From Thuidium tamariscinum (lineage: Eukaryota > Streptophyta > Bryopsida > Hypnales > Thuidiaceae): a DNA stretch of 64,000 nucleotides. Shown here one piece after another: positions 7,469 to 64,000 of this stretch. The notes beneath the pieces were generated by a model that saw only the letters and a list, made by a program, of their open reading frames with translations, made no database searches and had not been told where the DNA came from. The stretch covers positions 20,421,386 through 20,485,385 of the forward strand of contig OX344752.2 of assembly GCA_947034885.2 (NCBI GenBank), given 5' to 3'. The position numbers and the translations under genes are program-made. How positions within the stretch are numbered: the first letter of the stretch is position 1; every line of letters begins with the position of its first letter.

Positions 7469-8799
7469 GGGTGATTGCAAGAAACACTTGTCCTTTTTTT
7501 TGTCCCCTTGACCTTTAGGAGGTAGTTTTTTGCTCATAACTTTTGCATATTTTGTTCATTTGACTTGAAACTTGAAATAAAAGTGCCTACAAAGGTTTTA
7601 CATTTTGTGTAATTTTTTTCAATTTTTCCAAAATTATTTTACTATTTTAAAACTGCTCCCGATTGGGTGTCTACTCTGGCCATTTTGAGGGGTTTTAGTC
7701 CTATTTTTGACCCAAAAATGAAAATTTTGAGCTGAAAATTGGCATGCAAGGACCTAACCTAAAGTTACACAAGACTACAAAGAGATTTTTTGAAAATACT
7801 ATACTGTTCAACCTCCACATGTCGTCAAAGTGGCTGACTTTGCGCAAGTGTAGAGAATAGAATTTAATTTTTCCAAAGATGAAATTTGTTGGAAATGAAA
7901 GACCTTTACTTGGAAAAAAAATTGATTTTTACTTTCATTTTTTGAATTTTTTTACTATTTTTACCAAATTAGTGAAAAAAGAGCTATTTTCATTGTATTT
8001 TCCATTGTCTATAACATTTAGAGAAAAAATTTCTTAGGTCTGAATTTCAAGAGACATGATATTCTCATTGCTCTTCAAATTACCCATATTTTTTCAATTT
8101 AAAAAAAATTTATTTCAAAGGGTCACAGGACTCACAGGACTCACTGATTTTGAGCCATTTTGAGACAAAACCGGTAAGTGTTTCTTGCAACGATATAGTT
8201 ATATGTATAGTATTGTAAACTACTACAAAGTACTACAAAGGCCATTAGTAGCAGAAAATAGCAAAAAAAGGGTTGTGAACCATTTCATTTTTGGTAATTC
8301 AAAAAAAAATTCAAAAAATTATTTTAAGAAAATTCATTTTTCCAAACAAAATTGTACTCATATTGTAATAAAAATTTCTCTAGGAAATTTTTTCCTTCTT
8401 TATAGCCTTTGTACCTAGGAAGGTGATTTTGTTCCCATGTGTACAACTGTACAATAGACATGTTGCTAATTTCATAAAAACTCATTGTCACATCTTGTAA
8501 TGTTAGTAGACCTCCAAGTCTCCAACTTTTTAAATTTGTGGCTTCAAATTCGGATTTTTGGATAAAAAATAAGACTAAAACCTCCTAAAATGGTCAAAGT
8601 AGACATCCAATTGGGAGTAGGTTAAAAATAGTAAACTAATTTTAAAAATTTTGAAAAAATTATTCAACATCTAAAACTTTTGTGTGCACCTCATTCCAAA
8701 TTTCAAGTTAAAAAAAAAATATGCAAAAGTTATGTGCAATAAATTACTTGTTGGAGGTCAAGGGGACAAAAAATAGGACAAGTGTTTCTTGCAATCACT
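7469..8799. mobile_element. TIR element family 'A', 1.33-kb copy with long inverted ends
   Basis: It begins GGTGATTGCAAGAAACAC and ends with the inverted GTGTTTCTTGCAATCAC. Similarity between the two ends continues inward for roughly 280 bp, for example CTCCCGATTGGGTGTCTACT on the left against the inverse of a block near 8,590-8,625. A third end-like sequence lies inside at about 8,172-8,190. There is no transposase ORF, so the element is non-autonomous. No clear target-site duplication was seen here. Four further copies occur in the window. Confidence 0.85.
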
Positions 8800-9038
8800 C
8801 CAAAAGACAATACAGAATTTACCTTATTAGACCCACTTCATATGGAGGATTTAGTGTATTGCAAGGCATAACATTGTATACTAACTGCCTCCATGAGTCC
8901 AATAGCCCACGACTTCCCCAACATAGAAAGTATAATTTTTTGAAGATACCTCTTTATTCTGACTTTAGTTATATTGTGATGATTGAGATTGGTTGAGTTT
9001 CATGTTCTAGTAATTTTTGAGAGACATTTAATTACAAA

Positions 9039-9459
9039 GTACCCAAAAGTGGCGTACCACCCTTGGCCAATTAATTAGCTCCCCCTTCTCTCAAATGTTT
9101 TTTAGGCTACTGATTGTTTAAAAAAAAATTGCTTCCCTACGAAATCACCATTGATTTCTCAAAAAACCAGAATCCATTGATCTTGTGAGATTTAATCTAA
9201 GCTATTCAAATATGGATGTGGATATAATACGATATACAAAATACGTGGTGAATATTAAATTTGTGTATGGATATAGATACGGTACAGATATGATACAAAA
9301 TACATATATGGATATGGGATACGGGATGCATTATCCCATATCGTTGTCAATGAAGTTGCTTACTGAAAACTACAAGGAAGGGGGGAATGGATTAAAAAAT
9401 TAAAAAATTAAAAAATTAAAAAAAAATTAAAATTGATAATTATTGCCACTTTTGGGTAC
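9039..9459. mobile_element. ~420-bp TIR/MITE element with GTACCCAAAAGTGGC ends
   Basis: The left end GTACCCAAAAGTGGC is mirrored by GCCACTTTTGGGTAC on the right. The interior is rich in GATAT/ATACG-like degenerate repeats (about 9,210-9,345) and an (ATTAAAAA)n run (about 9,390-9,430). Just outside the right end, GTACCCAAAAGTGG appears again at about 9,475, making a hairpin of about 44 bp with the right end. Confidence 0.65.
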
Positions 9460-9489
9460 ATTGTTCATACAAGGTACCCAAAAGTGGTA

Positions 9490-12144
9490 GTAACTGCCAA
9501 CTCCAACATACAATACAGAAAGAGTCGTTAGATTTGAGAAAGCTAAAGGAGAACTTCCGGCATTGCTTAATCCCTAAATGAGTAAATGATGTACAAACCA
9601 TATTTTAGTTAATGAACAAAACAAAATCTTTCTATAGAGGACAAAAAAATAATTATTTATCCTTGAAATTAGGGGTGAAAAGAGAAGATCTTCTACAATG
9701 CTTTGACTTCCAACGAAAACTATTAAAACCAATGATTCCCACGGTATCAATATATTCATGATTTCCACTGCCACTGGCTCGTCGTTTAGGGGTTAATAAT
9801 ACTATGGTAACACAATTTGAACGGAATTTGGTTTCTTCAGATCAATTTACTTACTGTAGAAGAATGATACTACCAAATTCTCTATAATCTGTTCCGCTTT
9901 CCATGCAATTACCAAGTCCGTTATTGATTGATGGTGTGAGATCCCTACGTCAGAGTGACAAAGCTACCTCGGAAGTCTTGGCTAGCTCCTGCTTGCAAAC
10001 ACACAGATTTTGACAGTGCTTCACACTTAAACGTGAGCATTGCTAAATATGTTGGTGCAAAAGCCATAAATTGAAATGGCACGGTGAGCCCTTGAGCATG
10101 CACCGAACTGAAATGATTTAATTAGGGAGCGAGGAAGGTGGCGGGGAAGGGATGCCGGTGGAAAACCTAACAGGGGTGCAGATTCGATGCAATTTGCACA
10201 ATGATTCTGCATTCCTGTGGGTTCATGCAGCAAGCTCGTGCGCGCAAAACTCAACATGGGACATGAAATACCCGCAATTCCGGATCCACGGAATTGACAT
10301 TTTTAGCTTGAACCCAGATTTTCTGCCACAAAGAGAGTCCTAGCTAGTTTGACAAGCCGTTTGTGAACTTTCTGTCTGTACGTCACATGCAGCGTTCAAG
10401 AGATCGTCTACGTACTCCGATCATTTATCAGTACACTGATTGAAATATAATCTCTTAATTACAGCGGTTTGGCTGATATCGATATCGATATCGATTGGCT
10501 TCGGTGGGATGCATGCTTCGTATGTACACTCAGCAATAATCTTTCATGCATGTGACACCTTAAACATACCATGCATCAAGCACTTCGATCTGGGTCAGCA
10601 TCAAGCTAGATCAGAAAGTCTTGTTTGTTGGAATTCAAGTGTCTCATTGTGTCGATCAGTGTGTTTGTCTCTGATCGATCGATAGATGCTACTGCATGTG
10701 AACCTCAACCCCGACGACTTCATTTCAAATTTCTGCGGGGTCCCTGTTTTCGAGCAAGGTACTGTGGAACGCAATTAATTAAGAAAGATAAAAAGTTGTC
10801 ATGATGGTGTGAATTTTGATTTTAATGGTAAGGTCTGTACGAACGAGTTTTGAGCAGTTACACCGACACCTTTTTAATGGTACGTGTACAGTATGTACAG
10901 CGTTCCCGCCTCCTCAACCGTGTACTTACCGATTCATGGGATTCCGCCTGGCCGGGATGCATGAACTGTCGTCGTCTAATTAGAGAGTTCAATAGATTTA
11001 AAGATGTATGGGCCGACAGAGTGAATTCGAAAGGAGCCACGCTGTGTACACTGTATGACGCTGTAGTGGAAACGTCTATTTCGTTAAATCGGCGATATAT
11101 ATTCCATTCCTTTGGCGCGGCCTGAGCGAAACCAGAAACTACACATACCCCGGTTTGTGATCTGAAATTAGGCCTTTCATTGTGAAGATATATGTCACAA
11201 TTCTTGGCTTGTGGAACACCGGAATGTCACTATTTTAGCGAAATAGATCGACGTTAGGATCGGATTTCGCGCTACAGACAATTGCGGACAATCGGTGGAC
11301 GTTCAATTAAAATGATAAAATCCGTGAATTTAGCTCCATTGTTTATTCTATTAGTGAGAGAGTACCATGTAATTATATGATATGTATGCTTACCGTGGGC
11401 TCACTTGTCTGCAATTAATATTGCACGGAGTATGTACAATCCGTGACCGTCTTCTATTTTAACCCTTCAACTCCAAGCCTAAGGTCAACTTAACCCACAG
11501 CTATATAGGGCCTCTGGTAAAAAGAATTTGACCGTTCGTAATCTGCAAGTTGCACTGCTTACGATTCCAATAGGGGCTATAAAAATGAGCGAGGGGCTGA
11601 GTTCTTGTCACATGCAACATTCTCCTTCTGCAGCGATCCGTTCCAAGCTCTTACGTACGCACGTTCGTGTAAGCTTGGCACTAATGGACACAGTTTCAAC
11701 CATTGTTAGATGTTTCAGTTCCTTTTGTACGTTTCGATTACATGCAAATGTTTTTCAAGTACGTTGAAACTCAATGTGAATCTAACCTCGATCGATCTTG
11801 TCAAGTTAGCCAGTACGTCTTCTAAACTGTTCGATCTCCTGATCCATCACTAGCTAGGATCGATAGGTCCAAGCTTAGAACTTTCACAATGCAGGGACAT
11901 AGTTTCGACCAATTTTCCAGCATTGCAGTCGAGCAAGAAACAAATGAGCTCAGATCTAGGAATATTTTTGGTTCAGTTCGTGAATGATATGATGCTTACG
12001 TACTAGGTAACGGATCAGATCTTTGTTGTTAGCCAATTATGCACACTGATTTAACGAAAATCGATTGGGCCATGCAGGTCGGAAGAATGCGCATGCAGAG
12101 GCGTTACTTGTTGAAAGTCGTTTCGATTCTGCGAAGAAATTAAC
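9490..12144. other. Gene-free stretch entering a GC-richer island
   Basis: From about 9.8 kb the base composition rises compared with the AT-rich flanks. No frame here has a recognisable domain. A short self-complementary run of GATATC units lies near 10,478-10,497. Part of 11.8-12.1 kb is probably the promoter and 5' UTR of the gene that starts at 12,145. Confidence 0.5.
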
Positions 12145-16965: not shown

Positions 16966-17577
16966 TCAGATATCCACTTTATTGTAAGGCCGCCTTCCTA
17001 TCAAATTGGACTTAAACAAACGATGATTTATGCAAACTTTATAGGGCAAGCTGTCCCAAAGATCCTTTAATTTTCTACTAAACTTCAATTGGTGAACAAG
17101 GACGACCTCACTTTCATAGTCTATAACAAAGGCAGTACATTTGGTATACAATAAATAAGGGAATCCACCAGGCTCTAATTTGTTAGCTTCTGGTATGACC
17201 CTATTATCGAACCCTACACTTCTGAGAGCTCGGAAGCAGTCTCTAGTCACGAAGATATCAGAAGTGTTGATGGGAATTGAAATAGGCAAGTAATTGAGAT
17301 CGTCAAAAGTTAAACCCATGCCGACACTTTTCAACCATCGAAACAATCGATACGTTTCTCCTCGAAGGATCGGCTTGAATGTATTCAAAACCAACATGGC
17401 CATCTTGGAGTGTGGGGATTGCCACCAGTCAATGACCATGAATATGATATTCGGCAAGGTGATGACAAGAGTAGCGATGAAGAGGCCCAACTTCACCCTG
17501 AACTGATTCCAATTAAAGCACTCTGCAACGAAATTCAAGGTGACAAAGAGAAGGATCAAGAATACAGACAGATCCAT
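16966..17577 (-). CDS. Orphan two-pass membrane protein, 203 aa
   Basis: I do not recognise a family. The ATG at 17,577 opens a hydrophobic segment at residues 2-20 (MDLSVFLILLFVTLNFVAE). A second follows at about 28-50 (KLGLFIATLVITLPNIIFMV) before a WW motif. The remaining ~150 residues are a mixed, probably cytosolic or lumenal domain with several aromatic and basic patches and the sequence PGGFPYLLYTKCTAFVID. The frame is uninterrupted in otherwise AT-rich DNA and ends at TAG. It lies in the same island as the orphan membrane proteins at 12.1 and 13.2 kb, but I see no sequence repeat linking it to them. Its function is unknown. Confidence 0.6.
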   Translation of the reverse strand: MDLSVFLILLFVTLNFVAECFNWNQFRVKLGLFIATLVITLPNIIFMVIDWWQSPHSKMAMLVLNTFKPILRGETYRLFRWLKSVGMGLTFDDLNYLPISIPINTSDIFVTRDCFRALRSVGFDNRVIPEANKLEPGGFPYLLYTKCTAFVIDYESEVVLVHQLKFSRKLKDLWDSLPYKVCINHRLFKSNLIGRRPYNKVDI

Positions 17578-17964
17578 TACTACTAACTAATTCAATCCAC
17601 TGGAACAAAGGAGAAATCGATCGGTAAAACTCACTAGACTACGTCCAAAGAGAAATCCACTTATCACAAGTGCGACGAGCAGCTTTCCTTAGCTAGAGCG
17701 AGATTCTCAATCTGGAAGCAAATGAACGTACTTCAAATGTGCAGAGTTCCGAGTGAGACCGTTCGATCTAAAGGCCTAAATTTCTACAACTATAGGGAGA
17801 GGTCTAAATTAAAGTCTCTCCAGGATACTACTAAAATAAAGAGTCGATAAAACGTGTTGTTGGAGACCCTATTGATCGGAGCGCCCAGTGGACAAGCTAG
17901 CTATGGCTTACGGGAGATCGAGAAAACTGAACGATTAATCTTAATCGATCACGCACGCACTTGC

Positions 17965-18245
17965 CATGACTGACAACAGGCCATGGCCATCTAACTTACC
18001 GATCGAAGCTGCAACACTAACCGAGTGACAAAAACGAATTAAAGCACCGACGAAAGCTGAGGAGATCCACGCTTAGTCGTGCTGAAGCTAAGGAAGACCA
18101 TTTTCCGCTGCCTTCCTATTGGACTATGATGACTGAGACTAGGCCGCGACCATCTAACCGATCGAAAGCTAGCTGCAACACTGACCGAGTGATAAAAACG
18201 AAAGGTGAGGAGCACTGAGCTTAGTTTGGCCGAAGGAAAAGGCCA
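17965..18245. repeat. Tandem duplication upstream of the 17-kb gene, two units of ~120-150 bp
   Basis: About 17,965-18,115 and 18,127-18,245 share, in order, CATCTAAC, CCGATCGAA, GCTGCAACACT, ACCGAGTGA, AAAAACGAA, GCTTAGT and GGCCATTT-like blocks. The copies are imperfect. The position suggests a duplicated promoter or 5' UTR segment of the minus-strand gene starting at 17,577. Confidence 0.65.
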
Positions 18246-18396
18246 TTTCTACAAGACGTGGTCTGTAGACCGAGTACCAAGACCAGCTAAGTTAGTACTA
18301 CTCGTGTTAACTGACCTCCAGAATCTTTCTTTGCAACTTGGAGACGATGGAGTGACCGACGTTCAGTCGAAGATAGATTTTATCATAAACTATTAA

Positions 18397-19760
18397 TATA
18401 TGTAGCGCAAGGAATTAGAGCCACTTGCTTGCTTGAAATGATTAGAGTACTGCAGTCGGTAAGAAAGCGGTAAGAAAGTTGGCCCAAAGTCTACAGCATA
18501 ACATTATCAACCCTAGAAGGACTCTGCGGACACTTATTGTCCGATGGATGATTTCTAACAGATCTCCACTTCTCCAGTCGATAGAGTAGAGAGTATTCAT
18601 CCAACTGTTTTTTTCCAATAATAGGCTTAGTAGTGAACAGAGTTTGGCTGCTTTTCGGCTCATTGAAGGCCCTTGTTCTTTAGTGCAACTGAAGATTCTA
18701 AAAAAACGGCACACCGAATCTTTAGGACAGTAGCAGGCCAGCCTGCCCTAATATGAAATTTATATGCATGGGCATCTTGTTTTTCCAAGAAAATTTTCAT
18801 CATGCCTTCTCCAAATTTGGATAATAGGCAACAGGCAAGCTGTCCATGTGAAGTTGTGAACAATTGGGCAGTTCCTTGAGAGAAAAACAACAAAGCAGTT
18901 ACATCTCAGGACAAAAATAGAGGCGACTTTGGGGACGAGTATGGGCCAAATTCCATGCATTTACTTCCAAAGGCGGCTATAGAAATTGATACCTTCTCTA
19001 CAAAGTAAGAAGCAAAGTTAGCATACTCATGAACTAGTGCAAGAAGGTTTTCCACAACATCTATGCAATCTGTCTTTCCAATGCCTCGTCACACACTAAC
19101 ATCTCTTCAGCTCCCCCCTCCTCCCTGCGTCCCTTCATCATGCTCTTCGGAGGTAGCTGAAATTGTGGACCACTTGAAGAGTGTTCACAAAGCTGAATCT
19201 TAGCAAATTGATGTCATTGTTGGCTGTCTAACATAGAGCTATCTTCTCAATTTGCCAAGACTCAAAAATGACAAACACAATCATCTAGATAGGAGTTCGA
19301 AGAGACTATGATGGCTTTTCTATAGCTGGGTAGCTAACATACTACGTTGGAGGGAATGACGGAGTGAAGGAGATGAGAATGGGTTTTCACAGAACTTTTA
19401 CCGTATCATTCGTGAGGTTGTGTACCCTTCTCTAAAGATTGAGAGAGAAGAAGAGTATTAAGTACATTCGGTAGTTCAAGAAGTAAACTCAAGAAGCACC
19501 TCCTCTAAACCATCTTCAAGCACTTGTTATGACCTTGAACAAACTGAAATTTCGATAGGTCTTCAGTGGGTTCTTTGGACTACCGAGAATGACGATGAGT
19601 ACTGGAAGTAGACCTACCTTGAAGAAGGAGATGTTGACAATGAAGGATTCATAAATGAAGAACGATTTGAGAACAACTTGTGGTGGATGCAGGTAAAACT
19701 CTTCCCTTCCTATTTGCTCATCATTTCATTTTTTGTAAAGAGAAGAACAAACCATTTCCA
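18397..19760. other. Coding-like relics of unknown origin
   Basis: Minus-strand frames between 18,442 and 19,090 and plus-strand frames near 19,490-19,690 have protein-like composition. An example is the plus-strand frame with SSSKPSSSTCYDLEQTEIS near 19.5 kb. They are interrupted and match no family I recognise. They could be decayed gene or transposon pieces. Confidence 0.3.
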
Positions 19761-19880
19761 AATTCTATAAGAGATAGAACAATCACATTTTTCCTATTTG
19801 ACATATTCTTATATAAGATATAACTTGAGAGTGAATAGGAAGACTTGAAATTTGGCAATAGATATTCCTTACTTCAATAG

Positions 19881-20601
19881 GGTGATTGCAAGAAACACCT
19901 GCCGATTTAGTTGCGTTTGGCTGATTTTTTCGGGAGTACTTTAAAATTAGAAAATTAATTTAAAAAAGATATAAAAAATATGAATAGTGTATATACCTCT
20001 GAGATGAAGGTTTTCACCGAAGGAAATGGATAGAAAAACTCTCTAAGTAGGAGAACTTGAAAAGTGCCAAACCTCTAGAAAATACATACCTTCATGTTTT
20101 AATTAGGGAAAAATAGTAAAAATAAATATTTTCAAAAAATAAAAAGTTTCTATTTTCAACAACTTTATAGAGATGGTCATTCACAAAAAAACCCACCAAA
20201 ATAATATTTTATATGTTTCAAAATACAAGCAGAAGGGAGCTCATTTTGTAGACCTCCACACCACATAAAATTAACTATTTTTAAAAATCCTTTCCTGGAG
20301 AGCTAGAAGTCTATTAGAAGACCATCTCATCCAAATTTCATCTTGAAATCATTAAAAAAAAGGTACTCCATAGTACTAAAAAACCCTAAACTGCAAAGTG
20401 TGACATCCAATTGGGGTCTATTTTTGGATAGTAAAATATTTTTGAAAATTATGAAAAAATTATGGAAGGTTTATGATAGTTATGAGTACCTTCCCTACAA
20501 ATCTTGAGTCAATCGGAGCCAAAACACAAAAGTTATGGCCAAAAAACAGATCAGCACACGTAGTGTGACATAAAATAGGACAAGTGTTTCTTGCAATCAC
20601 C
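19881..20601. mobile_element. TIR element family 'A', 721-bp copy with 6-bp target-site duplication
   Basis: It starts GGTGATTGCAAGAAACAC, ends GTGTTTCTTGCAATCACC, and is flanked by CAATAG on both sides (19,875-19,880 and 20,602-20,607). This is the best-bounded copy of the family and gives the termini and target length. It has no coding capacity. Confidence 0.92.
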
Positions 20602-33788: not shown

Positions 33789-35954
33789 TCACAGATGGGT
33801 GTTCCAAAAGTAGGGATCCCTGCAGAGGTGAAATCCACAACCTAGACAGGCTTGATTTGTCCTCCTTCCACAAACGCGGCAGTTACCTCTCTTAATTCCC
33901 ATGCTCTTTGTGCCATGTGCTGAACGTACGTTTGGTGACAACGTCGAATAAGCATGATGTCGCCCGCTCCATTTTGATAACAACTGCTTGGCCAACTGCA
34001 TTTGGAAAGTGAGGTGAGTCATAGGTTCTTCAAGGAACTGAAAACTTAAATTTGAGTGAATAATCCAAGCATTGTTAATAGTTGTATCAAGCAAGTAGAA
34101 GAACAATCTGTGCCACCATTTGTGGCTGCGGGACTAACTAGAATAAACAACACGTAATTGATCAGCAGTGTCAACGCCTCTCATGTTTTCAGTGTATTGC
34201 AGATGCATTGGACCAGTTTTGACCTTCTTGCGTTTCCCTTTGACTCTACGGTAAACAAATTGCTTTGGGCCAGGTGGTGAGATTGCTTCTGCGTGTGTGG
34301 AGAGGAGAACCACGGCATTGCGGTCCTTCCACACAGAGCAACAAATCTTCCCCTCTTTATGCATGCGATAATCAATCCATCCATAATTCGTTTTTTTGGT
34401 GACAACCTTAGTAAACATAGGACGCGGCACATATTTGCGATTCGCTTTGAGCGTCCCTGTTGCCATGATCCCTGAGGCTAGCAAATCGAGAAACAAAGGT
34501 ACTGAGGTAAAGTGTTTCTTGCATTCACCCTCACATTTGGACATTGAATTCTCATAGAATTCCGGTGAAAAAAATACAACTTGTGACATTTTAATTTGTT
34601 AAAAATAGTATTATTTTCTTGAAAAATACATAAAAATACAAAACTTGAAAAAACTTTTTGGTGATGATATTTGACCAAAAAAATCACCAAAATAATGTTT
34701 TATACCTTTGGAAAAAAATGCAAAATGAAGCTCTCTTTGCCGACTTCTACAACACTTAAAAATAAGTATTTTTAAAATTCCTTTGGACAGTAGGTATAAG
34801 TCTACTAGGAGACCATGTTCTCCAAATTTTAGGTCAAAATTCGTTTTTTTGAGAAACGGGGTACTAAAAACCCTTAAATCAAGTATTGTGAGAAATTTTC
34901 GGGGATATTTAAAAATAATGAATTATTTTTGAAAAATCTCAAAAATTCATTTTAGATATATAATATCCATGAGTAGCTTCCCTATAAATTTTGAGTCATT
35001 TGGAGCTAAAACACAAAAGTTATGGCTAAAAGAGAAGGAACAAAATAGGGTGTGACAAAAGGCTTTAAGTGTTTCTTGCATTCACCCGTGACCCTTCCCA
35101 CCGAAATCATGCATCAAGTCCTTTACAACGTTTCAACCCCGCAGTCCCTATCCCTTCCCCGCATGCGTTGGAAAGCCGATGTCTCCGTCGACCGAGTCCT
35201 CTCCACTGTCGCTGCAATCACTCCCGTCATGAGGGTTTCCCATTTTACCGCAATAAATCTGAAAATTGCAGACGTACTTCGAAAGAGCATCTGCAACGCA
35301 CCAGACTTTCAACCCAAAGCGGACGGGTTTCTTAGGCAAGTATTGACGAATTGGAGAGTATTTTCCCTTATACATAACCATACTTTCATCAACAGTGAGC
35401 TGTTGATTAGGAGTCCACATAGTTTTGAAGTGGTTACACATTTGATCAACCAACCATCGTATCTTGTGTAACTTGTCATACAATGGACTTTGCCTGTTTT
35501 GAACTTCAGCAGGTGCTGTGGCTACATGAAGGCACCGAGTTATGCGTTCAAACCTTTCCCGTGTTAGAATATTGCTGATGACTGAGCAATGGAATAAATC
35601 TTCCTCCCGTGACCAGTAAAGGTGCCTATTCGGTACCTTCTTCATCCCCATGAAGAGAGAAATAGACAAGTACACCCGAAACTCTTCTAGCCGCAATGGA
35701 ATCCAATCCCGTCCTCCGCGGGTCCGCCCTTTTTAATCTAGGACCTCTGACGCATATAAGTTAGTTTCACGAAAGATCCTTCTTTGCATTTGAATTGACC
35801 AGAATCGTTGGAATAGTCCCAAAATAGATGGCAATCTGCCGTAGGGGTACATGCATCCCGGCTCATCTCCGCTAAAGGGAAGGGGCGCTAAGCTGTAATG
35901 AGGCATGTCTGGACTCCAAGTATTTGGAACAATTCGTGCTAGCAAAGGATCCAC
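33789..35954 (-). pseudogene. piggyBac transposase (DDE_Tnp_1_7), interrupted
   Basis: Transposases of this family cut and paste at TTAA. In order along the minus strand: LPFSGDEPGC and LFQRFWSIQMQRRIFRETNLYA (N-terminal part of the domain), VYLSISLFMGMKKVPNRHLY and NILTRERFERITRCLHVA, then TVDESMVMYKGKYSPIRQYL followed by KPVRFGLKVW (core with catalytic Asp). After the inserted element come HFTSVPLFLDLLASGIMATG and VVLLSTHA. A C-terminal CRVCGRRTNQACLGCGFHLC cysteine cluster is the family's zinc-binding tail. An in-frame stop separates the first two blocks, and the family-A insertion with a small loss lies just before HFTSVP. The family is unmistakable and the gene is non-functional as read. 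Confidence 0.93.
34508..35087. mobile_element. TIR element family 'A' copy inserted in the piggyBac transposase
   Basis: The interior matches the 15-kb and 20-kb copies in the same orientation (ACCAAAATAATGTTTTATA, GGAGACCAT, GGTACTAAAAACC, TTGAGTCATTTGGAGC, CAAAAGTTATGG). The right end AGTGTTTCTTGCATTCACCC is normal. The sequence at the left junction is the same AGTGTTTCTTGCATTCACCC in direct rather than inverted orientation, and the usual left 200 bp are missing, so this copy is rearranged. Confidence 0.8.
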
Positions 35955-54095: not shown

Positions 54096-54507
54096 GGGTT
54101 GTTGCAAGAAACACCGTGCAAAAAGCGTAGCGTTTTCAATAGTATTTCTTTTTTCCGGGAGTACTTTAAAATTAGAAAAATAAGTTTTAAAAAAAGTGAA
54201 AAATATGTTTCATGTATAAACCTTTAAGAAGAAGGTACCCTAGGAAAGAAAGGCATGGGAAAAATCTCTAAGTAGGAAATCCAGAAAAGTGCAAAATCTC
54301 ATGAAAATTAGCACTTCCACATTTAAATTTGTAAAAAATAGGAAAATCAATTTTAAGAAAAACTAAAAATTGTCCATTTGAGGAAAGTTGATTTTGATGA
54401 GATTTGACCAAAATAACAATCTTAAAACCATCATCATTGTTCAAAAATTGCGTGCCAAAAAAAAAATTTGTACTCATGTAGAGGACATAAAAAACAAGGT
54501 TGTCATA
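54096..54507. mobile_element. TIR element family 'A', left half only
   Basis: It starts GGTTGTTGCAAGAAACACCG and continues with family-A interior (GGGAGTACTTTAAAATTAGA, CTCTAAGTAGGAAA). Similarity stops at about 54,500, where GC-rich repeat DNA begins. The right half is not in the window. The simplest reading is that the large kinase/RING unit inserted into this element. Confidence 0.75.
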
Positions 54508-54745
54508 CCTGGCGGACGTCCGGTTCGCCCGTCCGTCCGTCCGGGACGTCCGATAGAGCTCTCGCCCGTCCAGTAGAGTCAACACATAGTTGACTTTTTG
54601 ATAATGGAAAAATAGGCCACGTGGCTGCCATGTGGATTCTAGAACATGCAGGGTGGGGACGCGATCGTTAGGGCGCGGACGCAATCGTCAGGGCGGGGAC
54701 ATGATAGTCAGGGCGCGGACGCGATAGTCAGGGCGCGGACGGGAT
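54508..54745. repeat. GC-rich tandem block at the left edge of the kinase/RING unit
   Basis: GTCC-type repeats (CGTCCGTCCGTCC near 54,530) are followed by about five units of 20-22 bp of the form GCGATAGTCAGGGCGCGGAC (54,655-54,740). These are the inverse of the units in the 58.9-59.2 kb promoter, so this is a partial promoter copy. No TATA box was seen. Confidence 0.8.
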
Positions 54746-54749
54746 TTGG

Positions 54750-57000
54750 GACCACCTTAAAATTAATTAATATGCTTCTACATATTTCCTTTTTATATTC
54801 CATATTCCCACTTTCCTAGTCACTCCAACACTTTATATTTTTTTTAATGTTACATCATATCACTCTAATTAGTCTAATACCCAAACCATTTTCATATCCA
54901 AATTACTCCACCATTCCATTTTTTTTTAGGTGTGAAATTACATCATTCTAACATCCAAACCATTTTCATATCCAAATCACTACACCATTTTATATTTTTA
55001 GGAGGTGTTAAATTACCTCACTATAACATGCAAACCATTTCCATATCCAAATCACTCCAGCATTCCATATATTTTTTGGGTGTTAGATCATATCACTCTA
55101 ACACCTAAGCCATTTCTATATTCCAAAGCACTCTTCCATCCCTTATTTCTTTTAATGTTAGATCATATTACTCCTAAAATAAATTGGTACGCTTTTCAAA
55201 AGCTTGGGTCACTTTACCTCCCCTTTTGGACATTGACTTTTGAAGCAGACTTCCATTCCAAGTCTCTGCGATTATTTTTATTGGCGGAATCATTCCCTTT
55301 CCTATATCTTCGCATCATTACCAAAACTCTTTGATTTTAATTCAATGCCATTTGTCTAGTGTAGAATGATTTCTTTTCCCTATTTTATTTCATGTGATTA
55401 CCAAAATTGTTCCATTCCAACCAAAGGCCATTTATTTTTGGTTGATCATTAGCAAAATTCTTTCATCCGAACTCAATTCCATTTATTTTTTGTGGCATCC
55501 CAACTCTATCCCAACTCTATCCCAACTCAATGGTAATTTGTGTTGGTTGTTAGTTGAAATCACTTTGACTCCTTATTTTTTGTGGACTTATCCCTCTTCA
55601 TTGAGTTTACTTTTATCAACAACATTTTGTTAACATAAAGCTTAAACGGATTTTCAAAACCCAACAACATTTTATTTCCCTCCTTATTTTTGTTTATCAT
55701 TCATATCACATTAACATCCAAACCATTCCAAGTTTTTTTAATGTTAGATCACATCACTGTAGCACCCAAACCATTTCCATATCCTTAGTCACTCCACCAT
55801 TCCAAAAAAATTTAAAGTGTTAAATCATTTCACTCTAACACCCAAACAACTTTAATTTATTATTCCATCATTTCCTTCCAATTTCTTTTGCATCATAAGC
55901 AAAACTCTCCCATCCCAAGTCAATGCCATTTGTTTTTTGTTAAATCATTCCTTTTTCTATTTTTCTCTCCTCATTAATTAACAAAGCTTTTCTATTTTTT
56001 TCCTTCAATCCTAAAACTCTTTCATTCCAAATCATTGTCATTTTTTTGGATGAATCATTCCCTTTCCCTTTTTTTTGGCTTCATTCCTAGAACTCTCCCA
56101 TCTGAACTGAATGCCATTTCGTATTTGTTCCATCATTTCGTTTCCTATGTTTTTTATTAATTAGCAAAGCTCTTCTTATCCCAACTCCATGCCATTCTTT
56201 TTGGTTTAGGTCATTCTCTCTCTTATTTTTTTGGCTTCATTCCTAAAACTCTACCATCCCAACTCATAGTTTTTCTTTTAGTTTTTCTTGAATAATTCCA
56301 TCTTCGTTTCTGTTTTGCTTCATTAATTAACAAGACTCTCCCATCCTAATTCAAAGCCATTTTTCTGTAATTCCATCATTCCCTTTCCTTTTGGGGGGCC
56401 TCCTTTCTAAAACCCTTCCATCCCAATTGAAAGCAAAATGTTCATTTTCTGTTCCATATTTTCTTTCCCTATTTTTTTGGCTTCATTCCTACAATTCTCC
56501 CATCCCAACTCATAGTTGTTGTTCTCTTTTTTGTTGAATCATTCCTTTTTCTTTTTTGTTTACCGTCATTAATTAGCAGGACCACTTTATTCCAACTCAT
56601 ATTTCCTCTTTATTTGTTGAATCATTCCCTTCCCTATTTTATTTTTGTAATATTTCCTAAAGTTCTTCCATCCCAAGTCAAAGCTATTATTTTTTTTGTT
56701 CCATCTTCCCTTTTCCTTTTTTTGGTTTCTCTTCATTCCTAAAATTCTTCCATTCTACTTCAATGTCATTCATTTTTTTGTTGGATCATTCATTTTCCCT
56801 TCTTTGGGGGGGCTTCATTAACTCCTAAAACATAGGCATAGTGGAAAAAATTAAGTGTGTGCATTTTTATACCAAACTATTGCATCCATAGTTTTCATTT
56901 ACGTTTTATCATCAATTCATAGAAGTCATAAAAAATGCCATGAGGAAAGACCAATGAAAGGGCATATTAATATATTTTGGGATTTTGAGTATGGTACACA
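54750..57000. repeat. Left satellite arm, degenerate tandem repeats
   Basis: Two unit types occur. The outer one, about 80-90 bp (54,780-55,170 and 55,690-55,860), contains CACCCAAACCATTTCCATAT and TGTTAGATCATATCACTCTA. The inner one, about 70-80 bp (55,200-56,830, roughly twenty copies), contains AACTCTCCCATCCCAACTCA, ATGCCATTTTTTT and AATCATTCCCTTTCC. It is strongly T-rich on the plus strand, so plus-strand open frames here are repeat artefacts. Confidence 0.85.
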
Positions 57001-57134
57001 ATTACACATCTGATTTAATATATATTCAAGCTGTTTGGCAATTGCCAAGTAGGTACATAGGCTCCTCTATGAGGATGATTTTCTTCTATGCCTGAAATAT
57101 ATGCTAAACTACAAAAAATATTAAAAACAAAATA

Positions 57135-58714
57135 CTATGTACGATAACAACAATCCGGCATCATCCAACAGTGGGGGGCCTTCTTCAATTTGTCTAGAAC
57201 ATCTGGCACTGTTGCCCTTTCACGCACATCTTCTTTTACGAGGCTTCCCAATTTGATCCTGAAATTCTGATACTGCTCTGGGTTTTTCGTTGTGAAGTAT
57301 TTAGGGTCCCACTCTTCATTCCAAATTGCAAAAGCTATCCATCCCACCGCATATGCATCAGCTGCCATAGAATACAAATGCGTTTTTTGCATGGCCTCAA
57401 TGGAGTTTGATGAACCCTGCTCTCCGTATACATAAAACAATTTTGGGGCCGCAAACCTTCGCTTTTTTTTCTCCTTCGCAAGGATCTCCATACTGGGATA
57501 GCCATACCTTGATGGCTCCTTTTCCACAACTCGGCTAGAAAGTCCCCAATCACATATCCCTATGTACACCCTATTTCGTTCCCAAGGATCAAAATGGAGC
57601 AAAACATTGGATGGAGATATGTCATTGTGCATGTACTGCGCATCATGGCATTTCCCCACAATGACAAGTAATGACAATGCCAATTTCACTCGATTTCTCC
57701 GATACGTTGCAACCCATGAAAGTTCCTCTTGCGTCAGCCCCGTAGAAAAATCACTCTCAATCTGATCCACATCCAGTGCTTCGCTCACTTTCGCATTGCA
57801 TTTGGACAAGAAAGAAATTAGAGATCCTCCATTCTACCATAGTGTGTAGCCTTCCATTGTTTTAGGGTGGAGGTACGCAATTCGAATGATGCCAGGATGA
57901 TTCACTAGACACCCTCCTACCTCATTGATGATTGCTTGGCGTTTCTCCTTTTCATTCTTAGTCTTCAAGCTCTTCCCAGCAAAAAATATCCAACTAGGAA
58001 TGCTCTCAAGTTTCGTAAAGATCACCTTCCTCACGGTCCCATACGACCCAATCGCAATTTGTTCTAGCATGGGGATGACTTTCACGGAACTTTCTAGCCA
58101 CTTGAATGTTCCACTCACGCAATGAGCCGTTATCGCTTCTTCAATTGTCACTTTCCATGGTGCTTGCTTTTTTCTACGTGAAGAAGAATATCGTTGAGCA
58201 AACGTTTGAATCTCCTTCACTTTTGTAACCATCTCTCTGTCCTCCGTGTCCTAGTCGCTACATCTTCTTTCTTACCCGTGTGATAACACCAATTACACAC
58301 TATATTGGTTGTCAAGGCGACCACTTGTTTATCCAGCCACTCTTGGTGCAACCAATAATTTGAGAAGTTGTTGAATTCTTCTGATTCTTCAAACTTTGAC
58401 TCCAGCTCCCTTCGCAGGTCCCTCGTCAGTTTGTGGTACCCTTCTTCGTTGAGCAACACATACTCCCTGTTCAACATATTTGTACTTCGACGAGTGTAGA
58501 ACACCACAGCTATTTTTCTCCCTTCGACTATGAATTCATGTCCAGGTATTTGGGGATTTTGTTCTTTCTTGCGTTTTTTCTGGCCTGATGAGGAAGGATT
58601 TGATGAACCTGAGGCCATCAACGTGTTCGTACATGGAATTACCGTCTCATCGACATCATCCAAGTCTACAAACATAGGACGTTTGTCCACCGATCCACTC
58701 CCTTCACCTGCCAT
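57135..58714 (-). pseudogene. Protein-kinase-like gene of the divergent pair, interrupted copy
   Basis: Starts at the ATG at 58,714 (MAGEGSGSVDKRP). The N-terminal ~170 residues include an NLS-like SSSGQKKRKKEQN. The kinase domain follows: gly-rich loop IAIGSYGTVRKV, lysine block FFAGKSLK, helix-C Glu in IINEVGG, catalytic loop YMHNDISPSNVLL (HND for HRD), DWG for DFG in IGICDWGLS, and AADAYAVGWIAFAIWN as subdomain IX. The Lys, Asp, Asn and Asp needed for catalysis are present, so the ancestor was probably active. The reading is broken twice: a change of frame near 58.22 kb and an in-frame TAG near 57.84 kb, just before a GGSL motif. It may be a recent pseudogene, or an intron or sequence error may be involved. 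Partner: the RING gene across the shared promoter. Confidence 0.8.
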
Positions 58715-58859
58715 AATGGAAAAAAAAAGTTCCAATGGGCCTCCGTATCAATCCCAAAGCAAGAAAGTTTAAAAAAAATTCAAAAAAACCAGGTCACATA
58801 TGCAGGCCAAGCCCAGCACCCACCAAACTCACTCGCACAGGCCGTGGGAACGAACTAGC

Positions 58860-59220
58860 ATGTGAGGCATAGGGCGCGGACTTGGCAAAGGAATGAGGGC
58901 GGGGACTCGCTTTATATAGTCCCCCCGCGCACGTCCCCGCCCCATCCCCATCGTGTTCCCGCCCCAACACGTGGAGTCCCCGCCCTGATACACGCGTCCC
59001 CGCCCTGACGGAGACGTCCGCGCCCCGACAACGAAGGAGTCCCCGCCTTGACCCTGGCGTCCGCGCCCCGACAACGAAGGAGTCCCCGCCCTGACACTGG
59101 CGTCCGCGCCCCGACATCGATGGAGTCCCCGCCCTGACAGCGATGGCGTCCGCGCCCTGACGTCCCCGACTGCCCCTATATAAACCCGTCCCCGCTTCAC
59201 TTGTCCCCGCCCTGCATACT
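58860..59220. promoter_or_regulatory. Bidirectional promoter: GC-rich tandem repeats between two outward TATA boxes
   Basis: On the minus strand CTATATAAAG lies at 58,910-58,919, about 200 bp before the kinase ATG. On the plus strand TATATAAA lies at 59,177-59,184, about 130 bp before the RING ATG. Between them about 257 bp hold some twelve units of 20-23 bp, alternating GTCCCCGCCCTGACxxxGGC and GTCCGCGCCCCGACAACGAA. Two inverse GGGCGxGGAC units lie beyond the minus TATA. The array is dense in CpG and G-runs. Confidence 0.8.
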
Positions 59221-59313
59221 CTCAGCCTTCCACCTCTTCATTGAGTTGGTTGTGAGCGTTGTGCGGGGTCTTTTTGATTGCCACGTGGGAGGTTTTCACA
59301 TTTTCTCGTGAAA

Positions 59314-61599
59314 ATGGCTACACCGACAAGACCAAGGAAGGAGGAACGAAACAAGACCCGACCACGACCAGGAAACAAACATCGTAAGCGGTTGCATGTT
59401 TTACATAATCCCGCAAAGCTTGCATTCAAAGGGTGGGAAGACGTGCCTGACCCATGGACTTACGAAAACTGTGCCAATTACATCGAGTGGTGCCACATTG
59501 ACAAGGTCTTCCCAGAAGAGCGACACAACTATCACCGACGCTTCCACAAGGCAAATTTAAAACATTGCATTGATGAGGAGTTCACAAATCGGTGCATCGA
59601 AGTGTACCAGGCGTTGTATGATGTCCCTATCGTCAAACGCAATGAAGTGCATCTCTTCATTGCACGAGGGGTACATGCGGAACTGAAGTTGAACAAGAGA
59701 ATGGATTGGTCAACTTTGAAGACAATGGGGGACAAAGTCAACATTCCTACCCCAGCAAATGGATTCATTCCAAGAGGGGTAAAAAGGTACCCGCAAGGTG
59801 GACTGGGTAAAACAACTACACAAGTTGAAGCACCACCATTACATGACATTGAGGACTCTGCTACAGATAACGACTCGGATGGATCTCATGTGCCACATGC
59901 ACTCAGCTATAGAACAAATCTACGGCTTAAAAAGAGGAGGGCTGAGCGTGCAACTGAAGAGGGTGTACAAGAAAATGTTGTGGAGGGACAGGTGCCAGCT
60001 ACTGACGAACCAACAATAGGAATTGTTGATGTTACAGCTGCTGCAGATCGAATTCAAAGTTTGAGGATTGAAGTGGAAGAGAGTAATGCGCATCTGCATT
60101 CTTTGTCTGAAGATGTTAATAAATTGAGGGATGAACTCAAAGAGAAGAACAATATTATAAGTGAACAACAACGTGAGATAGAGGCGCTGCGGCATGCTCT
60201 TGAAGCAGCCACATTGGCCAATGATGGTCAGGATCCACGAGGGGGAGCGCAAGGGCCTCCAATCAATGATGAAATTCCAGTGCAACATGTTGAAGTTGGT
60301 GCAACACAGGGTACTCAAGATGATGCACTGTCATTTGGAGAATTACCCACAAATGCAGGTCAAGCAATGCCAATTGACCAGAGCATTCAATTGACGGACG
60401 CGCTTGCAAACAATTTGATATTGAAAAAACAATTGAAAGCGTTGATGGAGCAATATTACCAGTGGAAGATGGCATGCGTCTTTTCTGTTGACAGGACTCA
60501 GCAAATGGTGTCAGAATTCCAAAAAATCGACAACAATTATGGCGCACACAATCAAGAGAGGGTTTTTGGGTTGACATCGTGGGCCCTCGTGGATGATCAT
60601 TTCAACATGGATGAAATGGTGACCAAAGACATTGGTGGTGGAACAACAATCATCGATTGGTCCAAACACCATTGGGATTTCAAGAATGAAGTTGGCTCTT
60701 CCCTCGACCAAAACGGCAATCCACTATTATTGTGGCCAAATCCTTCAAGCTTCGTGTATGATGGTACTACGTGTCCCATTTGTCTAAATCCATTTGGCCC
60801 TGAAGGTGGAATGCACCTAGGCACGTGCGAACACTTGTACCATCCATTTTGTTTGATTAGCTTGATGGTTGTTCGTCGACGGTGTTCCTTGTGCAAGGCT
60901 CCTTTCCATGAGCGCTTGTATGATTTGTTTGGATTAGTTTCATACATGCCACCACATTGGGAATATAATGCTGAAAATGCCCCTGATCATGCTCAGAAGT
61001 GGGGAACTGACTTGGTGTGGAGTTGGAAATTGAAGGTCCATTCCTTGGATAAACAAAACCTTTCTGCCGAATGGGGTTGGGAAAAAAATCCAGCTCAAAT
61101 AGTGGAGGTGTGTCAACACTTGATTCCAATGAAGGACAAGTATAGCCAAGGACGACAGAATTTCTTCTATCAGTGCTTCAATGGGCATTGGGACGAGGTT
61201 TTTGAGAACTTTCAATTTGGACCTCATCCTAAACAGTGGTTTTGGAATAGGGATGGAGTTCGTATCACTAACGACGATGGGATTCGTATGGTGGATGATA
61301 TTGACATGCCTGACCCTGCTGAACTAGTTCAACTAGAGGAGTCAGAGTGGCGAGAAACCTTTCGACATGAAGGGATGGATTTCTTGCTTGAACAGCATAG
61401 CCCTCGAACTCGCCAATGTCTTGAGAGCCTCAAACAATCACAGATCATGAGGGCTGTATTGGAGGAAGATGGACCAGCGCGGAGAACTCGATCCGCAGTT
61501 CGTAGACTTCGTTTAGGCTCGGACGAAGACCTTCCCGTCATTGCAGGGACACATGACAATGAGGCTGGCCCAAGTGGCAGTGCAATGGACATAGACTAA
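59314..61599 (+). CDS. RING-H2 protein with coiled coil, 761 aa, intact
   Basis: Probable E3 ubiquitin ligase. The start AAAATGGCT at 59,314 is preferred over the in-frame ATG at 59,278 because of its context and basic N-terminus. Order: Arg/Lys/Pro-rich start; a ~150-residue alpha-rich domain with WTYENCANYIEWCHIDKVFP; an acidic linker; a coiled coil at about residues 244-301 (RIQSLRIEVEESN, KLRDELKEKNNIISEQQREI); a second helical region; a RING-H2 at about 487-527 (CPIC, CEHLYHPFC, CSLC: all eight ligands present); then a ~120-residue conserved-looking domain rich in Trp (MPPHWEYN, GWEKNPAQIVEVCQHLIP, FFYQCFNGHWDEVF); and a basic C-terminal patch RRTRSAVRRLRLG. It is one exon, without interruption. 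I cannot name the domains outside the RING. Confidence 0.88.
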   Translation: MATPTRPRKEERNKTRPRPGNKHRKRLHVLHNPAKLAFKGWEDVPDPWTYENCANYIEWCHIDKVFPEERHNYHRRFHKANLKHCIDEEFTNRCIEVYQALYDVPIVKRNEVHLFIARGVHAELKLNKRMDWSTLKTMGDKVNIPTPANGFIPRGVKRYPQGGLGKTTTQVEAPPLHDIEDSATDNDSDGSHVPHALSYRTNLRLKKRRAERATEEGVQENVVEGQVPATDEPTIGIVDVTAAADRIQSLRIEVEESNAHLHSLSEDVNKLRDELKEKNNIISEQQREIEALRHALEAATLANDGQDPRGGAQGPPINDEIPVQHVEVGATQGTQDDALSFGELPTNAGQAMPIDQSIQLTDALANNLILKKQLKALMEQYYQWKMACVFSVDRTQQMVSEFQKIDNNYGAHNQERVFGLTSWALVDDHFNMDEMVTKDIGGGTTIIDWSKHHWDFKNEVGSSLDQNGNPLLLWPNPSSFVYDGTTCPICLNPFGPEGGMHLGTCEHLYHPFCLISLMVVRRRCSLCKAPFHERLYDLFGLVSYMPPHWEYNAENAPDHAQKWGTDLVWSWKLKVHSLDKQNLSAEWGWEKNPAQIVEVCQHLIPMKDKYSQGRQNFFYQCFNGHWDEVFENFQFGPHPKQWFWNRDGVRITNDDGIRMVDDIDMPDPAELVQLEESEWRETFRHEGMDFLLEQHSPRTRQCLESLKQSQIMRAVLEEDGPARRTRSAVRRLRLGSDEDLPVIAGTHDNEAGPSGSAMDID

Positions 61600-61899
61600 G
61601 TGAAGTTTCTACTATCTAGCTAGTGAACTTATGTTTTCATAGAAGACTTAGGGTCCTAGCTTAATATAGGCTTATAGAATTTTGATCTCGGCAATAGATA
61701 TTATTCGTTATATTAGATATTGGCACATGCATTTTTAGATGGTGTCATGGTCATAGTAACCTCGTCATATACTTTTCCAACTATGTATTCCATGACGCTT
61801 ATGAAATATATATTATTTAGCCCAAAATCTAGGCCAAAATCACTTCGTTTTTTTTTTGCACATACTCTTTTGAAACAACATCATACATATACAAAAATT

Positions 61900-64000
61900 A
61901 TATCCTAAAATGAAATGTCATTGAATTGGAGTATTGTACTATGATTCATTTCCATTTTTCCATGAATGAATAAAATTAGGGAAGGACAACAAATGCCATT
62001 ATATTGGAAAAAAACTCATTTCTAATGTTGCTAATGATAGAAAACAAGTAAATGGCATTCACTTGAGATACCACCAAAAAATAGAGGGCATTCTGGTGAG
62101 ATGGAACAATTTCGCTAATCAAGCCCCAAAAAAATAGGGGGGAATGATATACAATAAATAAAGTGCATTGGGATGGCATGGGATAATGTTGCAAATGCTG
62201 CCAAAAACAATTAGGGAGGGAATGATATCCACAAAAAATGGCATTCAATTGGGACAAAATAATCTTCCAAATCAATAAAATAAAACTATAAAGAGTTTAG
62301 GAAATAAATCGTCTTCTGTTGGGATGGAACATGTGGCTAATGAATTTCGAAGAATTAGGAAGGTAATGATCAAAGAAAAATGAATGGCATTCGGTTGGAA
62401 AAAAGTTAGGAAGACAAGAGTAGTGCCATTTACTTCTTGTATAACTTGAGATGGAACAATTATGCTAATGAAGCCAAAAAAAATGAAAAAAAAATGAATC
62501 CAACAAAAGAAAAGTTGAAAAGGCATTGACTTGGAATGTAAGTGCTTTCAAAATAAATGCACCCAAAAGAGGGGTAGAGAGACCCAAGCTTTCGTAAATT
62601 TTATTTGGGAATGATTCTAAACTTCACTTACAAGTTAAAGTGATTGACTATAATCCCAAACACTCATCCTTCAATTTCCTATCACGTAATTGCCAGACCG
62701 ACAATGGAAGTGTATTGTTACCCAAAGTACAAAAAAATGGGAAAAGTAAGTAGGGATGATTAAATTGGCATGGAAATAGGTACATATTTAATAAAAAAAT
62801 GGTTACCCAATATAAAAAAATTTAGTGGCGAAAAAATCAATTTTCATTGACTTGAAATTGATGAAGTAAAATGTCATTGACTTGGAATAGGATTCAATCA
62901 TAAAAACATGTACGGAATGAAATGAAAAGTCATTGAATTGGAGTGGAATTCATTTCCAATCTATGAAAAAAATTAGGTAAGGAAAAAAGACGTCATTTAG
63001 TTGGAGTGAAAGTGCATTTTAGATGTTATTAATAAAAGCAAACAAATGTGAGAGATATGAAACAAACATTATGTTTGATTACCTATTTTAATAAACGAGA
63101 AATGGAAAGCGAATGGAAAGACTTCCATTTCTTACCATAAAAAACATTTATTATTGAGTTGGGATGGAAGAGTTTTTCTAATGAATAAAAAAAATAGGAA
63201 AGGGACTGACGGGAAAAAAAATTACAATTTATTAAGACGGAAAAGATTTCGGTTCAGGATTAAAAAATAAGGAACGAGAATGAGGGCGAAAAAAAATTGG
63301 TATTGAGTTACATGGACAAGTTTTGCTAAACAATAAAGTAAAAAACATAATAAAAAATAGTAAAGAGGTTGGTTAGCTGGTGGTACAAAAAAAATTCCCA
63401 TTGACATTGGATGAAAGAGCTTTGCTAATAAATGAAGCCAAATACATTTAGGAAAGGCAATGCAATGATTCAACTAATAAATATTGGTATTGCTAATTAC
63501 GATAAAAGAGTTCTAGGAATTAATGAAGACCAATAGAAATGAAAATCTGAAAAGAAAATGGTGACAAAAAAAGATAGAATGATGCAACAAAAAAAGGATG
63601 GCATAGAGTTGGGGAATGAGAGCTTTGCTAATTAATGGGAAATAAATAGGAAAACGAATGACGTAAAAAAAAATTGGCATTCAATTTGAATGCAAGAGTT
63701 TTAGGAATGAAGTAAAAAAAAAGGAGATAAAACGATTCAATAAATAAGGAATGATGCCACAAAACAAGGGGGCTAAATAATTCAACAAAAAGGAATGACA
63801 ATGACTTCGCATAAAAGAATTTTTGCATTAGAGGCCAAAAATATAAGAGTTTTGCTAATTAATGAAGCAAGAGAAATGGACAAGGAATTGAATTAAGAAA
63901 TAAAAAGATGGCATTGACTTCGGATAAGATAGTTTTGCTTTCCATGCATAAAAAATTGGAAAAGGGATGATGAGATGAAAAATTGAAGTGGCGTACTGGA
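61900..64000. repeat. Right satellite arm, inverse of the left arm, continues past the window
   Basis: The units are the inverse of the inner left-arm type: AATGGCATTxAxTTGGGATG, GAGTTTTGCTAATxAATGAA, GGAAAGGGAATGAT. About 25 degenerate units are visible. The outer unit type of the left arm has not appeared by 64,000. The strand is A-rich here, as expected for an inverted arm. Confidence 0.85.

Follow-up and report, generated by a model that had tools for sequence, protein, structure and literature searches.

Towards its right-hand end, the 64,000-nt stretch of Thuidium tamariscinum DNA analysed here (hereafter the window; C4:20421386-20485385, from a genome searched as 363 Mb on 19 contigs) harbours a protein kinase gene and a RING protein gene that are almost certainly part of a giant cut-and-paste hAT transposon, termed family A, with its own transposase, protein kinase and RING protein. 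The locus had been put forward in a preliminary description as a mobile, multicopy two-gene system framed by long satellite arms, and several parts of that account hold. The RING-type gene on the plus strand is real, forming a single open frame (59314..61599) of 761 aa from its first ATG. The kinase-like gene on the minus strand (57135..58714) is recognisable, but its frame is broken in the window copy by a frameshift near 58217-58250 and an in-frame TAG at 57834-57836. The two genes are indeed arranged head-to-head, with their start codons about 600 bp apart on either side of a common upstream region (58715..59313) that contains 11 motif copies.

With regard to the kinase, the Pfam Pkinase model matches the broken window copy with an E-value of 5.3e-7 and 29.7 bits (Pfam cut-off 31.7). 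The frame is uninterrupted, at 526 aa, in five of the 10 family-A copies compared, these being the window copy, followed into the DNA to the right of the window (L009), and nine further copies. Alignment with relatives reveals the catalytic residues K235, E252, N357 and D376 in 19 of 19 proteins, and D352 in 18 of 19. The structural model of one relative, P0020 (predicted local distance difference test score, pLDDT, 83.3; 1,721 Protein Data Bank (PDB) matches at E ≤ 0.001), is predicted to adopt the kinase fold, together with a helical N-terminal portion. By alignment and by the model of this relative, the protein thus possesses the catalytic Lys, Glu, Asp, Asn and Asp, as well as the fold, of the protein kinase superfamily. 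Public data contain 37 relatives of the kinase at 25-83% identity, many of which are full length.

The RING protein consists of a conserved N-terminal region, a predicted coiled coil, the RING finger and a C-terminal region. Within the finger (60772..60894, plus strand), all eight zinc ligands are present in the window protein (C488, C491, C506, H508, H511, C514, C525 and C528, numbered from base 59311); across an alignment of 20 proteins, four of these are invariant, three others are each replaced in one protein, and H508 is retained in 16. The zf-RING_2 model matches the window protein with an E-value of 2.3e-5 and 25 bits (Pfam cut-off 27.3), and 17 of the 20 aligned members at E ≤ 0.01. 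At least 19 relatives, many of them full length, occur in public data at 34-79% identity (best 7,996 candidates scored). Structure modelling of the full RING protein gave a model of low quality (mean pLDDT 59.6), and a PDB search with it returned nothing at E ≤ 0.001; for these reasons, no function is read from the structure. A scan of genome contigs for the RING protein gave a sole locus, of 39% identity, on a contig from another source (L034); this is filed under a cyanobacterial metagenome-assembled genome, presumably as contamination, and the RING gene on it is preceded by seven exact GTCCGCGCCC units and followed by one. A more distant relative, of about 29% identity and with an open 731-aa frame, was noted in the moss genome on the minus strand of c4_165 (L017), at positions 17995-19965.

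Extent, ends and transposase of the family-A element

The satellite arms flanking the gene pair had been taken for the architecture of a mobile unit. The left arm (54870..56830) is composed of degenerate units of about 75-82 bp, and the right arm (61850..64000) continues outside the window, where it later appears as 172-bp tandem units (L009:2272-3228). That the two are inverted to each other is borne out by BLAST, with 53 inverted and no direct matches between them, none in three shuffles, and none against 2.4 kb of neighbouring AT-rich DNA. The arms are, however, an internal satellite rather than the ends of the element. The left arm is absent from five of the 10 copies, and a two-gene element bounded by inverted arms was rejected for this reason. 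The ends are instead a 13-bp inverted repeat flanked by 8-bp target duplications.

On the left, an element end does exist where a boundary had been proposed, but at position 54495 and not 54508. The left terminal inverted repeat (CAAGGTTGTCATACC; 54495..54509, plus strand) corresponds to CA[AG]GGTTGTCATAC in all 10 copies, beginning CAAGG in two and CAGGG in eight. In the four copies with both ends read, the right end is ...TATGACAACCCTG, and the 13-bp inverted repeat CAGGGTTGTCATA is found at both ends, with the CAAGG variant at the left of one of the four. This repeat fits the hAT pattern [T/C]AGNGNNG. Three of these copies have exact 8-bp target duplications (CTTTTACT, GTCTACTA and CTAGTAGT), and the fourth displays GCGACAAC/GCGACAAT, with seven of eight letters matching. 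The complete copies measure 19,997, 19,301, 16,952 and 17,047 bp and are 95.7-97.6% identical across aligned DNA. Near the right end of one complete copy, around position 21500 of c2_362 (L032/L035), a further inverted repeat was seen by eye.

By copy alignment, the left inverted repeat and comparison with complete copies bearing 8-bp duplications, the left part of the element occupies 54495..64000 (plus strand) of the window. The unit extends beyond this to about L009:8254 (window-equivalent about 72254), where it is truncated. The window copy lacks the right end and has a broken kinase frame and an open RING frame; its truncation, together with a nested 1.09-kb insertion, marks it as a decayed copy. 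The insertion (L009:3229-4318) has inverted ends, AGGGTGAATGCAAGAAACACTT, and its target duplication could not be confirmed.

A third gene, a hAT transposase (PF04937, PF05699), follows the RING gene and the right arm outside the window, and the supposed two-gene system is in fact a three-gene hAT transposon. The transposase matches DUF659 with an E-value of 1.9e-36 and Dimer_Tnp_hAT with 2.9e-7, and its hAT residues D243, D304 and E624 are invariant in 19 relatives; public data contain 34 relatives of the transposase. The N-terminus is zinc-finger-like, with C24, C27 and H41 kept in 90% or more of the 19 relatives, and a zf-BED match was not found in the transposase by Pfam. The whole protein spans about 1,200 aa and includes a long low-complexity tail. 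The size of the element and its types of gene might otherwise bring to mind a virus-derived or virus-like entity, as large DNA viruses commonly carry genes of both kinds. A hAT transposase, short inverted repeats and 8-bp duplications make this extremely improbable, and searches of 2.9 million viral contigs for relatives of the RING protein and kinase gave 26 and 23 pattern matches, respectively, none of which was confirmed by tblastn. Viral origin was rejected on the strength of the transposase, the ends and the duplications, along with the lack of a confirmed viral relative in that search.

Copies across the genome and sister families

A mobile, multicopy nature had also been anticipated, and the genome contains at least 44 dispersed family-A RING loci, merged from 54 search rows at ≥80% identity. 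This is a lower bound obtained with the best candidates scored, the search having given 61 rows, seven of which (43-71% identity) were set aside. The kinase is head-to-head with the RING gene in all 10 copies read in detail, one pair being split by an insertion. A transposase lies downstream of the RING gene on the same strand at less than 12 kb in 31 of the 44 loci (median 7,016 bp) and at 12-60 kb in a further nine, whilst four have none; no other RING-transposase geometry occurs at any of the 44 within 60 kb. The RING gene and transposase are thus linked genome-wide, and in the copies read the linkage extends to the kinase, with the transposase truncated or outside the DNA fetched in four of the 10. 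Four transposase-A fragments with the same 733-aa frame were seen about 0.2 Mb apart (C6:24949068, 25160696, 25392958 and 25585187), as if in a long-period array, and a divergent hAT transposase (38-42% identity) occupies positions 17021-18997 of c9_154 (L013), on the right-hand side of a family-A copy that is broken.

The RING loci of family A are spread over 11 of the 19 contigs (C1-C11). The preliminary description had raised the idea of an amplified sex-chromosome array, after the multicopy male RING gene of Marchantia. Given this spread, and four complete copies with different target duplications, such an array has next to no chance of being correct, and it was rejected as a description of the family. 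The ends are similarly dispersed, with the exact 13-mer CAGGGTTGTCATA occurring at 224 places genome-wide, compared with two for a reversed control. Amongst the 100 listed of these 224 places, there are 34 adjacent facing pairs less than 60 kb apart, 12 of which contain a RING gene and 22 of which, of 228-10,991 bp, do not; neighbouring pairs in a non-facing layout comprise three in reverse order and three of the same sign. From their ends alone, we infer that the 22 RING-less pairs are shorter derivatives. Within the same 100 places, short units with family-A ends fall into size classes of 0.23-0.29 kb (five), 3.8-4.0 kb (eight) and 6.8-7.0 kb (four). Dispersed copies accompanied by shorter relatives with common ends are the usual picture for a hAT family.

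Comparison of copies within family A gives ratios of non-synonymous to synonymous substitution (dN/dS) of 0.52 for the RING gene (95% interval 0.36-0.78; nine of 10 copies, c3_38 being left out), 0.53 for the kinase (0.33-0.91; the five copies whose frame is complete and unbroken) and, for the transposase, 0.70 (0.50-1.01; six copies), or 0.75 for the first 730 transposase columns. These values combine the effects of selection prior to insertion and of decay since then, and stops in some copies were skipped. Judged by these ratios, the RING gene and the kinase are under measurable constraint within the family.

One family-A copy is inserted just inside the left end of an element of a second family, B, whose RING protein is 43-51% identical to that of family A over matched pieces (41 rows at 92% or more). 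A kinase lies downstream of the RING gene on the same strand at 38 of the 41 RING-B loci (median 12.5 kb), with none at the other three, and 29 loci have a same-strand downstream transposase that is 44-46% identical to that of family A. The median of 30 RING-B to transposase-B distances is 29.5 kb, and 31 of 44 kinase-B rows have transposase-B downstream on the same strand (best 83 candidates scored for transposase-B). A complete family-B copy (C10:4843221-4879992; L040:422 to L041:3393) spans 36,772 bp between exact 8-bp duplications, GTATCTGG. It has CAGGGTTTTCT at both ends, which in this one copy deviates in the last letter of the 8-letter hAT pattern. This element is very large for a hAT, and about 16 kb between its kinase and transposase are unannotated. 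Elsewhere, two long open frames of 639 and 471 aa (L028:4253-6169 and 8587-9999, minus strand) are located upstream of a family-B RING gene.

A third family, C (L042:841 onward, and L043), has a RING protein 70-71% and a kinase 73-76% identical to those of family B. Here the kinase is convergent to the RING gene, at a distance of 8.1-8.7 kb, in all 14 RING loci (52 of 70 kinase-C rows used). The candidate left end of family C, CAGGGTTGTTCTG, interrupts the hAT transposase frame of another family (L042:7-840). The kinase and RING gene are therefore divergent in family A, on the same strand in family B and convergent in family C, so that the head-to-head order of family A is not shared by its two sister families. 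The occurrence of the same two accessory genes in three layouts indicates that the gene set is kept whilst the layout changes, and the recurrence of these extra genes in relatives with other arrangements suggests that a kinase and a ubiquitin-ligase-like protein are used for the transposons' own spread.

These observations bear on the possibility that the element has captured both genes from the host and carries them as passengers, or Pack-type cargo, that serve no function for it. Gene capture by DNA transposons is described as widespread in plants, in the parts of the source consulted (PMC8903248). In the present case, such an origin is improbable: both genes recur in three families with three layouts, and their dN/dS values in family A are below 1 and not above that of the transposase. 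Public relatives, many of them full length, are found at 34-79% identity for the RING protein and 25-83% for the kinase. When the moss genome was searched with RING-A, RING-B and kinase-B, the best candidates, which were those scored, all belonged to these multicopy families or were decayed pieces.

Overall, the best explanation is a giant hAT transposon, family A, with the kinase and RING protein as its own accessory genes, the role of both being inferred; we assign this a probability of about 0.9. Several findings weigh against it. Nothing here shows a target of the kinase or of the RING protein. The RING domain scores below the Pfam cut-off and H508 is replaced in four of 20 proteins, which makes ligase activity uncertain, and on the sole foreign contig, L034, a kinase was not found in the 1.9 kb that precede the RING gene. 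None of the 10 family-A copies read has all three frames shown to be open, no activity was observed, and the dN/dS interval of the transposase touches 1. Linkage to a transposase is also incomplete in family B, with none within 70 kb, amongst the best 83 transposase candidates scored, at 11 of the 41 RING-B loci, and with one on the opposite strand at a further locus. Likewise, 12 of the 44 kinase-B rows have no transposase-B and one has it on the opposite strand, and in family C no transposase was reached in the stretches read.

Motif arrays and the possible role of the accessory proteins

All three families possess arrays of short GC-rich motifs. In the window, a left subterminal array (54649..54745, minus strand) contains four copies, within one mismatch, of the 13-bp motif GTCC[CG]CGCCCTGA. 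With one mismatch allowed, the four complete family-A elements have 42, 46, 47 and 57 copies, clustered at the left end (where they are reversed) and in the gap between kinase and RING gene, with further clusters mid-element, ahead of the transposase gene and at the right end; none occurs in 24.3 kb of flanks, in positions 1-54494 of the window or in five shuffles of one element. The family-B and C stretches searched contain no copies of this motif, and instead display arrays of CGCGGTCGCC upstream of the RING gene, the kinase and an N-domain gene, as well as at both ends in family B. Outside families B and C, CGCGGTCGCC gave three hits in one complete family-A element and one in L034; none was found beyond the B ends in the flanks fetched, nor in positions 1-54494 of the window. 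The arrays thus differ between family A and families B and C, the latter two having one motif in common. RING-less relatives of the N-terminal region of the RING protein were noted at L038:3608-4762 (minus), L043:4867-6339 (plus) and L024:2625-3737 (minus). Such N-domain proteins lie near motif arrays or kinase genes and are present in the family-B and C stretches read.

A possible mechanism is as follows. The transposase, with its zinc-finger-like N-terminus, DUF659 region and dimerisation domain, would bind the ends, and perhaps the GC-rich arrays too, and move the element by cut-and-paste. The arrays may be binding sites of an element protein, with those at ends and promoters acting as shared addresses. 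The kinase and RING protein would raise expression or mobility of the element by modifying host factors, for example silencing proteins, through phosphorylation and ubiquitin transfer. An anti-silencing or expression-supporting role of this kind, with host silencing as the favoured target in analogy with VANC of the Arabidopsis VANDAL elements, is a tentative proposal, with somewhat longer odds against it than for it. A more specific version is rather unlikely: a two-protein counter-defence combining phosphorylation and ubiquitin, in which the RING protein and kinase, having stayed together through three gene orders, are guided to lineage-specific GC-rich arrays at promoters and ends and free their own elements from host silencing, in the manner of VANC except that host proteins would be modified or removed.

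The main rival, which is about as likely as the anti-silencing role and equally tentative, places the action of the kinase and RING protein in transposition itself, be it in the stability of the transposase, in repair or in control of the cell cycle during excision, and not in silencing. The arrays would then, with the same degree of doubt, be no more than sites at which the transposase binds and which additionally autoregulate promoters, a property of subterminal motifs in other transposons. In its favour, the same motif is reversed at the left end relative to the right and also occurs upstream of genes, an arrangement explainable by a single transposase with a zinc-finger-like N-terminus. 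On the other hand, arrays are also present well away from the ends, at the promoters of the kinase and RING genes, and family A has a different motif from families B and C, as is the case in VANDAL anti-silencing; the rival is still compatible with both observations.

Comparison with known systems

Family A resembles the hAT superfamily (Ac/Ds and Tam3 type) in its transposase domains, D-D-E residues, short inverted repeat of the pattern [T/C]AGNGNNG and 8-bp duplications. Elements of this superfamily are usually regarded as small one-gene transposons. Families A and B differ in size, at 17-20 kb for the former and 36.8 kb for one copy of the latter, and in their extra kinase and RING genes; the family-A transposase differs too, in its length of about 1,200 aa and its long low-complexity tail. 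In the sections available of a 2018 survey that covered 11 plant species, the longest hAT consensus measures 7,144 bp, and the moss Physcomitrella yielded no element of this type (PMC6027215). Amongst the best-matching papers of the literature searched, which lay outside subscription journals and bioRxiv, none was seen to describe a hAT element that has both a kinase and a RING gene.

VANDAL elements, by classification, have accessory genes besides the mobility gene, and family A is similar in this respect and in its motif arrays that vary between related elements. According to the portions consulted of the relevant study, VANC targets tandem-repeat motifs that differ between related VANDAL elements (PMC5735166). 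The tandem non-coding arrays of families A and B/C differ in a comparable way, which is a resemblance and not membership. Family A belongs to a different superfamily, and its accessory proteins, of putative anti-silencing role, are a kinase and a RING protein. ToxhAT/ToxTA of wheat pathogens is also comparable, being a 14-kb transposon with a non-transposase gene, but is fungal and single copy. Its hAT status is now doubted by its own authors, in the text seen; it has a 2-bp TA duplication and 74-bp repeats (PMC12506042). Other giant eukaryotic transposons (Terminons, Burro and Helitrons) are alike in large size and accessory functions but use other integration enzymes. In the extracts consulted of a review, such accessory functions are put forward as aids to regulation or as a means of undermining host defence, and the words hAT and kinase are absent from its main text to that extent (PMC6431247).

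The elements described here include complete hAT copies of up to 20 kb, and once of 36.8 kb, and a kinase and RING protein that recur in three families. Were these proteins counter-silencing or mobility factors, transposon silencing could be approached through a naturally occurring, sequence-addressed tool, and they would exemplify ubiquitin and phosphate signalling encoded by a transposon. A large multicopy gene family liable to be annotated as host kinases and E3 ligases would find its explanation in them as well.

As for the window as a whole, an Rfam scan gave no family at gathering score, and a fragment of a piggyBac-like transposase is present at 35148-35729 on the minus strand (DDE_Tnp_1_7, E-value 9e-40).

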